From the NCBI GenBank assembly GCA_029204225.1, contig CM055108.1:956217-1020216 (forward strand): 64,000 nucleotides of DNA, written 5' to 3'. Of the stretch, positions 25,873 through 28,289 are shown in pieces; the first letter of the stretch is position 1, and every line of letters starts with the position of its first letter. The position numbers and the translations under genes were made by a program. The notes beneath the pieces were generated by a model. The model was not told where the DNA came from and ran no database searches. It saw only the letters and a list, made by a program, of their open reading frames with translations. The DNA is from Diphasiastrum complanatum (Eukaryota > Streptophyta > Lycopodiopsida > Lycopodiales > Lycopodiaceae).

Positions 25873-26670
25873 ATGGGGCAGACCAAGCAGACAACACGAG
25901 GTCATTCAGGTGGTATACCAATTTCAGGAACGGGTCAGAGAAATCCACAACCATCACCTCGTCCACCACCACCTCCTCCTAGGCCAAGGGGCAGAAGAAG
26001 AGACCCACCCTGGCTCAAGGATATTCGGAAGCTTCAGAAGACAAATAATCTTCTGATTCCGAAATCTCACATACAGAGGTCCATCAGAGACGTTACAAGA
26101 AGTCTATCTGCAGATGTGAGATGGACTGTAGTAGCAATTGAGGCGTTGCACACAACATATGAGGATTTCTAGGTGAAATTTTTTTTGGATACTATTGTTG
26201 CAGCTGTCCATGCCAAGAGGGTGACCATTATGCCCAAGGATTTCAACATTGTGTTCAGGCTTCGGGACACATATGACAAGTTTGCAGAATACTTTAGACC
26301 TGCTCCCTCCTCTCCTAAAAAAAAAGATTCAGAGAGGAGAAAACGAAAGCAATCTCAACCAACCCGACTTGTTATTCGTATACAAAGCGGGAGTGTTTCA
26401 AAGAAGAGGAGGTCTCTTGACCCTCCAAATAAAGCGAGGGATTTTTTCAAGCCATCTTCTCTGAATACTATTCTTTCTTCTAGACATTCTCCTCCTAATT
26501 CTCCTCCTAAGTCTCCTTCTTCTCCTCCTAAGTCTCCTTCTTCTCCTCCTAAGAATCCTCCTAAGTCTCCTTCTTCTCCTCCCAGAATTCCATCTTTAAC
26601 TTCTCCTGCTAAATCTTCCTCTCCTAATAAATCTCCACTCCTAAACCTCCTCCTCCTCCTAACCCCGTAA
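25873..26670 (+). pseudogene. Divergent histone H3-like domain with SPPK linker
   Basis: The start gives MGQTKQTTRGHSGG, matching the H3 N-terminus (ARTKQTARKSTGG) with the H3 K4 position kept and K9 lost. A Pro/Arg-rich tail follows, then the fold: WLKDIRKLQKTNNLL (alphaN), SHIQRSIRDVTRSL (alpha1), ADVRWTVVAIEALHTTYEDF (loop 1/alpha2), and VHAKRVTIMPKD (loop 2), the last almost identical to canonical H3. NLLIP and RWT are more like centromeric H3. A TAG at 26170-26172 replaces the residue that is Leu in H3 (EAYLVGLF), a one-base change from TTG. After the fold come a basic segment (KKKDSERRKRKQSQPTR) and repeated SPPK/SPPKSPS units at about 26480-26630. A frameshift near 26640 separates this from PKPPPPPNPVNISSPLH. 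It sits just upstream of an Ulp1-like domain on the same strand. Confidence 0.8.
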
Positions 26671-27153
26671 ATATTAGTTCCCCTCTTCATGTTCTTGGAA
26701 ACGATTTAGATAATTTGTTAGTGTAAAGGTAGAATCAATTTTGAATGACAATTCTTTTTGTGGTTTATCTGTATTACTTTCGTCAGCCCCTACACTTGCC
26801 TTTGTAAATACTCCTCAATATGTATAGTATGATCAATTGTTAAACATGTATCTTAATGGTTTAGGTCCTCGATATAGTTTTAGGATGTTGAAGACCAATA
26901 CTGGTCTCCCCCTTTCTAGATTAGATACAAGTGAATTAGAAAGTAGAGATAAAATGCTAGGGGACAATGTAGGAGGTGGGGCAATTCAATACTGGATGGA
27001 GTTTTTCCAGACCCCATTGTTTATAGATGTTGCATTGTTTCTCCTTCAATTCATGGCTGCATTTGATTTCCCTGATTTCAAAAGTCTGCATGATGATATG
27101 CTCCAATACGTCAGACTGGGGACTCCAATTCTCGTGCTGCCATACATAACAAA
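26671..27153 (+). pseudogene. Ulp1-like protease, N-terminal part (exon)
   Basis: The linker continues in another frame to VESILNDNSFCGLSVLLSS, with a TAG near 26826 (PQYV-stop-YDQLL). Then the open stretch from 26830 gives LLNMYLNGLGPRYSF, RDKMLGDNVGGGAIQYWMEF and ILVLPYIT. In Ulp1/SENP (C48) proteases the pattern 'L.D..I..Y' precedes the catalytic His, and a hydrophobic strand leads into it, as here. The exon ends at 27153 with a good GT donor (AAA|GTAAGTG). This is a family-level assignment from order and spacing, not from overall identity. Confidence 0.6.
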
Positions 27154-27334
27154 GTAAGTGTCTTTTTTTCAAATTTTATTATATTGAATTTTTCATATGA
27201 ATTTTGATTTCACATTGATTCTCATAGATTTATTGTTTTCTGATTGCAGTGAACATTGGAGCTTATATGTGTTGTCCTTGTACGTCAATGATGAGGGTGT
27301 GTGTAATCCAATTTGTTTAAAGATGAACTCTATT

Positions 27335-27443
27335 ACACACACACACACACACACACACACACACACACACACACACACACACACACACACACACACACAC
27401 ACACACACACACACACACACACACACACACACACACACACACA
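27335..27443. repeat. (AC)n microsatellite inside an exon
   Basis: An uninterrupted run of about 54 AC units lies between the His and Cys motif exons and keeps the reading frame, so it would encode a Thr-His tract of about 36 residues. Confidence 0.98.
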
Positions 27444-27549
27444 AAATTGCCAGGACCCATATCCAGAAAATACTGGAACTCTTTCCAGTACCAAATACAA
27501 AAGCATATTCAAAGCTGAAAATGGTTGATGCAGAGGTATAAAATTTTTA

Positions 27550-27706
27550 ATATTGGTTCGACACGCCCTTGTAGTTATTGATTGGTTTATTTTCATAACG
27601 TGCGCGCTGATCCGATATTCAATCAATATTTTTTTGATATCGGTTCGACGCGTGCTTGTTTCCGTTGTAGATTTTATTCTAACATCCTGCGCGTTGATCC
27701 GATATC
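27550..27706. repeat. Two ~70-bp units with inverted ends, locus 2
   Basis: Unit one, 27550-27619, starts AATATTGGTTCGACACGC and ends GTGCGCGCTGATCCGATATT. Unit two, 27636-27706, starts GATATCGGTTCGACGCGTG and ends CTGCGCGTTGATCCGATATC. Ends of each unit are imperfect inverted copies of one another and match the units at 25794 and 56341. Both lie in the intron between 27535 and 27744. Confidence 0.75.
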
Positions 27707-28289
27707 TCATAATGTTAAAATTTAGATTCTGCAGTCCTCCTAGCAAGTTGATTCTGTCAGTTGTGGTTGGTATACCGTATGCAATGCCAAACACTTTTTT
27801 AATTGGCTTGCATTACAAGATGGACTTTCAAATCTGGAAGAGGTAATCTTTGATTAATTACTTTTAATTGTGTTTTTATTTTTTTCATATACAAATTCCT
27901 ATTAACTGATCTTTGATTAATTACATTTAACTGTTATGTTTTTTTTTTTTTTAGTTTAAATGCCCAAAGGTCTCGCCAAAGGAGATAATGCACTTCAGAC
28001 AGGAGACCATAAAGCTTGTGATTGAAAATTCATATCCAGTTGCAGTGGCTGAGTGTTCTCCACCCAAGCTACTTCCAACTGGAGAAATGGATTTAGAGAC
28101 CATTGATAGTTGATACTGATTAAATATTCATCTCACTTGATGTGGATGAGACACATGTACAAATATTTCTAATAGAAATATATTTACACTTTGTCAATGG
28201 TTGTTCTTACTTGTTTTTTTTTCTATTATTAATTCAGATTATGATTCATTAATCTTCAATTTCTACGGTTTTCTGACATGTTTGTTTTT

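Follow-up and report, generated by a model that had tools for sequence, protein, structure and literature searches.

A histone H3 fold and a protease-like domain in one gene

The window, a stretch of 64,000 nucleotides from Diphasiastrum complanatum (contig CM055108.1, positions 956,217 to 1,020,216 of the forward strand), contains at 25873-28113 a decayed gene with a full histone H3 fold and a divergent domain that resembles the Ulp1/SENP cysteine proteases (Table 1). The gene is housed in an 8-11-kb element with inverted ends (CATTAGGGG) and at least four other genes. Judging from sequence, it is almost certainly a degraded copy of an element-borne gene for one protein, composed of H3, a linker and an Ulp1/SENP-like domain. 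An earlier note on this DNA had read here an H3-like fold linked by introns to an Ulp1-like region, in a copy damaged by lesions. The fold is confirmed by Pfam and by solved H3 chains; three introns are inferred, with GT and AG ends kept in 14-16 of 17 aligned rows (the window and fetched copies, see below). Decay is evident from nonsense codons, located in the region of H3 helix 2, immediately ahead of the protease part and in the exon of the catalytic Cys, from two frame breaks in the linker, and from a nested copia-type element. The Ulp1-like region stands as well, as a divergent one: it matches SENP8 by two shuffle-controlled methods, but has no Pfam C48 match and leaves SENP1 unmatched.

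That the first part is histone H3 is beyond doubt, as judged from the beginning of its tail and from its fold. With 25873-26670 as query and its in-frame stop read as X, the PF00125 match spans the whole fold (Table 1; E 6.9e-16 in the L012 copy), and the matches to solved H3 chains include the tail, which starts MGQTKQTTRGHSGG vs. canonical MARTKQTARKSTGG. The length of loop 1 and the stretch HAKRVTIMPKD are of the canonical H3 type, and the 60 best PDB matches listed are all named H3 forms, none of them CENP-A. Helix 2 of the window copy starts with RWT, presumably as in CENH3 proteins, and the remainder is canonical-like. His113, Arg116 and Asp123, the residues of H3-H3' pairing in canonical H3, are kept both in the window copy and in a second, diverged element. 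A structure prediction for the H3 part placed helices at 4-15, 22-35, 44-72 and 79-98, as expected, at a mean predicted local distance difference test score (pLDDT) of only 56. Of the modifiable tail lysines K4, K9 and K27, K4 alone is kept. Counting the first Met as 0, Lys4 is the sole lysine before position 40 in 17/17 rows, and three rows have a lysine at 40. The tail start, fold sequence and HAKRVTIMPKD are shared with canonical H3, whereas the loss of tail lysines other than Lys4 before position 40 and the C-terminal protease-like extension are not.

The second part is best described as Ulp1/SENP-like, a resemblance in sequence that falls short of proven membership of C48. Its His and Cys boxes are in register with those of SENP8/NEDP1, a C48 protease. 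In pairwise comparison, the Cys-box piece matches human SENP8 with z 7.4, and 0/2000 shuffles scored as high; the ungapped match spans the inferred intron-2 junction. With hhalign, the L012 row gave SENP8 at probability 69 (P 4.3e-5, score 33.6), the maximum among 100 shuffles being 18.9. The catalytic His is present in 16/17 rows and the Cys in 14 of the 16 rows with letters at that position. Several results weigh against this assignment. Pfam-A returned no match for the Ulp1-like part, and C48 was not among the matches up to E 10 for either the window or L012. A single-sequence search of the PDB listed SENP8 at E 0.1 (window) and 0.6 (L012) only, below or beside chance-level matches. The Cys-box piece did not match SENP1 pairwise (p 0.78), and hhalign against SENP1 found nothing (probability 0.7). 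For the His-box piece, SENP8 gave no significant score (p 0.20) and SENP1 a weak one (p 0.04). In addition, the usual catalytic Asp position holds Asn (MNS) in 16/17 rows and Lys in one, L012 has lost the Trp that follows the catalytic His, and beyond the His and Cys boxes the homology is weak. Together with an AlphaFold prediction of the protease piece alone that was uninformative (pLDDT 37.6), the missing Pfam and SENP1 matches and the Asn at the acidic position could point to a domain that is unrelated or dead, its HW and CGW motifs being due to chance. We regard this as improbable in view of the two shuffle-controlled SENP8 matches, and of the diverged element, which retains just the His, Asn and Cys boxes (HWSL, KLNS, SCAW).

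Some details are peculiar to the window copy or its surroundings. To judge by exon-2 lengths, the other aligned rows have a shorter (CA)n run than the window copy (27335-27443, in exon 2). A codon-bias scan over the linker was weak and noisy, mildly favouring frames 1, 3 and 2 in succession. The sequence of exon 4 is present twice, and the two copies differ by dN 0.21 and dS 1.03 (nonsynonymous and synonymous divergence) over 36 codons. Between them, at 28278-28491, lies an imperfect palindrome of ~214 bp, possibly a fold-back insertion.

Table 1. The fusion gene, its element and the second element in the window, with window positions.
Feature	Position	Strand	Evidence or remark
Two dyad units, presumed 5' leader	25700..25864	.	
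Window copy of the element; left part lost, right end complete, copia-type insertion ~28978-32724	25596..33698	+	blastn vs. family copies: 25596-28977, 32725-33698; copia-type open reading frames (ORFs) in the gap
Histone H3 tail and fold, residues 1-132; one in-frame stop	25873..26268	+	PF00125 E 1.8e-18; PDB H3 E 7.3e-19
Lys/Ser/Pro-rich linker with SPPK-type repeats; two frame breaks, one stop	26269..26827	+	One open frame in L009, L012
N-terminal part of Ulp1/SENP-like domain (UlpN; exon 1 end)	26828..27153	+	
Intron 1, phase 2	27154..27249	+	GT 16/17, AG 16/17 rows
Exon 2: catalytic-His box EHWSLYVL, MNS box, (CA)n run	27250..27535	+	
Intron 2, phase 0; dyad units at 27549, 27636	27536..27734	+	GT 15/17, AG 15/17 rows
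Exon 3: catalytic-Cys box QVDSVSCGWYTVCN; one in-frame stop	27735..27842	+	SENP8 alignment
Intron 3, phase 0	27843..27954	+	GT 14/17, AG 14/17 rows
Exon 4, C-terminal end	27955..28113	+	
Diverged second copy of exon-4 sequence	28549..28664	+	Both copies in 14/17 architecture-keeping loci
Element gene m3, split by nested element: 28930-28977, 32850-33229	28930..33229	-	
Right terminal inverted repeat, same as the family's right end	33667..33698	-	0/32 mismatches; sharp end in other copies
Second element (left end 49904-49935)	49904..64000	+	7/32 mismatches to the first element's left end
Second element, coiled-coil ORF	50319-50945		27% identity to the first element's
Second element, transposase-like parts	51279-51758, 54109-54438		44-45% identity
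Second element, m1 gene, part	55074-55423	-	
Copia-type element within the second element	gag-like frame from 56755		

Copies of the fusion gene across the genome

The plant's own 1.745-Gb genome was searched with a 76-residue H3 query. This gave 5439 first-look candidates, 150 of which were scored, and 150/150 matched at 79-100% identity. The matches listed occur on each of the 24 lowest-numbered contigs. Contigs with numbers above 24 hold 27 of the 150, and some of those 27 have identical counterparts on the large contigs (the window copy, for example, has a twin on C522), so that part of the list may consist of alternative haplotypes. Twenty copies were fetched as 10-kb stretches, picked partly for long open frames and therefore a non-random sample. 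The 17-row alignment comprises the window and fetched copies, with L011 (almost identical to L010), L018, L020 and L021 excluded.

The H3, linker and protease pieces follow one another in the same order, on the same strand and at similar spacing in 17 of the 20 fetched copies. The earlier note had suggested that the gene is either a chimeric protein of chromatin or a capture carried by a transposon. One finding that it named as speaking against this was intact relatives whose H3 and protease parts belong to unrelated genes. The 17 copies show the opposite, and the other three (L018, L020, L021) are truncated or internally deleted. At the level of sequence, the chimeric protein is upheld by single open frames that cross from H3 into the protease part: L009 and L012 are open from the H3 start codon for 404 and 411 codons, past the linker and as far as exon 1 extends, and L014 (392 codons) and L015 (351) are also open from the H3 start into the protease part. 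Splicing L012 at the family-conserved sites yields 562 codons uninterrupted by a stop, with an altered sequence at the very end; in L009, the first acceptor is damaged. A chance adjacency of H3 and protease fragments is ruled out by these 17 copies and by the second element.

The dispersed copies might also be offshoots of a domesticated or ordinary plant gene for an H3-protease protein, a reading to which the introns, and a protein that is not obviously a transposition enzyme, lend some credit. We consider it very improbable. The scored matches number 150 at 79-100% identity, copies share their flanks up to sharp ends, and a diverged element carries the same gene in the same place.

The carrying element and a diverged relative

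Relative to the H3 start, copies without large deletions are alike from more than 3.5 kb on the upstream side to a sharp end on the downstream side, at 3.3-5.1 kb (mostly ~4.5 kb). The right end reads ...AATATCCCCTAATG, and the left end, CATTAGGGGAAATATGGGCTCAAAATGGGCCC, is its inverted counterpart, differing at 5/32 places. Both ends are present in 4/8 upstream-extended copies, L022 (9.1 kb), L023 (10.0 kb), L025 (8.3 kb) and L026 (11.3 kb), and L013 has the left end only. Inspection by eye of L022, L023, L025 and L026 revealed no target-site duplication. From left to right, the element contains a coiled-coil ORF, a pair of transposase-like ORFs, m1 and m2, which make up one or two genes on the opposite strand, then the fusion gene, and finally m3, again on the opposite strand. 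With the gene placed inside a multi-copy element that has inverted ends and other genes, the transposon-borne part of the earlier suggestion is borne out. The transposase-like ORFs, at -4.8 to -3.5 kb, have DDE/CxxC-like motifs that are conserved in the second element; these motifs were judged by eye, and we keep to "transposase-like" for that reason. A Pfam scan covering nine element ORFs from fetched copies (from L029, L030, L022, L026 and L015, with m1, m2, m3 and the coiled-coil ORF among them), a part of the whole element, gave no convincing match.

Several known affiliations were considered for the element and rejected. CACTA/EnSpm finds no support, with no Transposase_21 among the nine ORFs and with ends that read as given above. 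An ordinary Mutator element or a VANDAL element lacking terminal inverted repeats is not supported either, given the inverted ends and the absence of a Mutator Pfam match in the same ORFs. Giant-virus origin was dismissed after two scans of viral contigs, which cover close relatives only, yielded 13 and 7 pattern matches and 0 by tblastn. A search of plasmids with the UlpN piece gave no match.

The second element begins at 49904, is interrupted by a copia-type element, and resumes past the window (L037) with more of m1, m2, an H3-protease gene at L037 2509-4253, and m3. Its H3 (L037 2509-2781) is 52% identical to that of the first element (E 2.6e-28). The His box HWSLNIISVKINKKGVSNFLYIKLNS matches at E 7e-8, the Cys box QKDAFSCAWFVLYNTKLFFEW at E 3e-6 and exon 4 weakly at E 0.03; some queries used against this element were composites assembled by eye. 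Intron phases agree between the two elements at the beginning of exon 2 and where exon 3 joins exon 4, as also judged by eye. The two H3s score 235 against each other, vs. 175 and 195 with canonical H3. Where the window copy has RWT, the second element reads RFV, and its H3-protease gene also has in-frame stops. Since the second element agrees with the first in gene order and carries an H3-protease gene of its own, the fusion predates the split of the two elements and has been kept since.

This relationship bears on whether the gene does anything for its carrier. Captured H3 and protease genes could have been amplified by hitch-hiking, without use to the element. Captured gene pieces are frequent in plant transposons, according to PMC13317346, and 16/17 spliced rows of our alignment hold stops, a fact that also counts against the function proposed below. 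We nevertheless judge a mere passenger to be quite improbable. Elements whose proteins are 27-53% identical share the fused gene, the gene order, the catalytic boxes and, by eye, two intron junctions. Furthermore, pairwise dN/dS among the 17 rows is below 1 in all eight correctly framed segments (a further one, labelled HWS, was discarded for its wrong frame), namely 0.72 in the tail, 0.33 and 0.70 in the H3 core, 0.57 in the linker, 0.39 in UlpN, 0.20 in UlpC1, 0.35 in the Cys exon and 0.50 in exon 4, values that are weakened as support by the non-independence of the pairs and by the inclusion of decay after insertion. The two exon-4 copies of the window likewise have dN below dS, as given above.

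Dyad units near the gene

A dyad unit measures 71 bp and consists of two inverted 17-bp arms (GATATCGG-type) whose starts are 54 bp apart. Six such units occur in the window, a pair each in the presumed 5' leader, intron 2 and a copia leader, against 0 in each of 200 simulated sequences, a contrast to be read with the caution that the motif was defined on sites that were later counted. With looser settings, shuffled sequence gave 0-11 pairs vs. 8; because such shuffles give as many pairs, the signal must be carried by the exact 54-bp spacing. The leader unit is found in 18/21 stretches (window included), as is the intron-2 unit (18/21), and more units recur at about -1.5, -1.4, -0.8 and -0.6 kb. 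The two copia-leader units, at 56341 and 56425 (56341-56495), are in the leader of an unrelated copia element, just 5' of its gag-like frame. Their presence there detracts from a role specific to the fusion gene's element and means that a host factor may bind the dyads instead.

A possible anti-silencing histone

The joining of H3 to a SUMO-protease-like domain in a gene of the element suggests that the element uses a histone of its own on host chromatin. The best overall explanation, an element-borne fusion gene whose protein would serve as an anti-silencing histone, is in our opinion a probable one as a whole; its anti-silencing mechanism can be offered only tentatively. The H3 part would pair with H4 and enter nucleosomes, chiefly on or near the element, a reading based on the kept H3-H3' pairing residues. 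Its tail would offer Lys4 without K9 and K27, the lysines that bear heterochromatin marks, and the tethered protease may strip SUMO or a similar modifier off silencing proteins. In this way the protein would hold the chromatin of the element open. The dyad arrays, located between element genes and in intron 2, could serve as regulatory or landing sites. Two features of the second element tell against parts of this proposal: its H3 tail is not H3-like, which weakens the argument from the tail, and it shows nothing that significantly matches UlpN. As a wider and rather doubtful possibility, the elements may belong to an undescribed superfamily of multi-gene DNA transposons that place a histone variant of their own, an H3 without the silencing lysines joined to a SUMO-type protease, in their own chromatin against silencing.

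A different use of the same protein would be in targeting, with the H3 part as a chromatin address for integration, perhaps to centromeric nucleosomes, and the protease maturing or stabilising proteins of the element, a task of adenain-like proteases in other mobile DNA. The RWT at the start of helix 2, presumably a CENH3-like trait, fits this idea, and the element encodes several other proteins on which a protease might act. However, the canonical loop 1 length and HAKRVTIMPKD, the absence of CENP-A from the 60 best PDB matches listed, the RFV of the second element, and the occurrence of listed matches on each of the 24 lowest-numbered contigs all speak against it, and we think it unlikely. 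The joining of a protease-like domain to a core histone points directly to nucleosomes as the site of action, and if the protein does enter nucleosomes, it would be a transposon-encoded histone variant. How DNA transposons resist silencing would in that case become directly testable with a single protein, the dyads as one candidate landing site, and a tail naturally without K9 and K27.

Comparison with known systems and other H3 proteins

Among the entries listed in searches of the open-access literature, there was no H3-Ulp1 fusion and no transposon-encoded histone. Parasites with core-histone genes do exist, as in the Marseilleviridae, where these genes are partly doublets, but no protease fusion is known among the histones of these viruses. 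In the protein database, a 611-amino-acid read-through query, for which 7976 candidates were scored and low-complexity words were dominant, returned one Amoebophrya H3 protein (496 amino acids) and four weak matches, each of them with His-Thr runs. Residues 320-455 had 0/103 candidates at E up to 1. Residues 45-144 had 3/35 matching candidates (P0006-P0008, 477-487 amino acids). These three proteins have a C-terminal H3 fold (HAKRVTIMPKDF) after a long unrelated N-terminal part, have PF00125 as the sole Pfam domain listed, and are another kind of H3 fusion.

Proteases of the Ulp1 type are themselves no novelty in DNA transposons. Ginger1, Mutator and other transposases carry Ulp1 or OTU domains, as described in PMC2836005; transposase and protease form one fusion in Ginger1, whereas the present family has the protease-like domain joined to histone H3, in a separate gene. 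The VANDAL/KIU elements, Mutator-like but without terminal inverted repeats, also have a gene with an Ulp1 domain, some VANC-type genes of Arabidopsis elements bear such a domain, and the precise function of transposon-carried Ulp1 domains is unknown, all according to PMC13317346. In Arabidopsis VANDAL elements, VANC binds tandem motifs in the introns and upstream regions of its own element and removes DNA methylation (PMC5735166), and that placement of target motifs recalls the dyads described here. Unlike VANDAL/KIU, the present family has a core-histone partner for the Ulp1-like domain, inverted ends, and no convincing Pfam match in the ORFs tested. SENP8/NEDP1, for its part, is distant from the protease-like domain outside the shared boxes and has Asp where the latter has Asn.

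Other features of the window

Remains of a CACTA-type transposon lie at 3196-5304 (Transposase_21 E 5.7e-45, DUF4218 E 9.9e-30). Several open frames of ~155-163 codons at 15062-16989, two of which were scanned without a credible Pfam match, possibly belong to a multi-exon or mobile gene. A DNA similarity at 22361 was judged to be chance, as tblastn gave no support, and scans of the window with Rfam (at the gathering threshold) and for tRNAs found nothing. On the minus strand, 40523-44254 encodes a copia-type polyprotein that is open over 1243 codons, perhaps a young insertion. Finally, tandem repeats with a 174-bp unit and similar consensus sequences occur at 31262-31587 and 60109-60457, beside copia-type frames.

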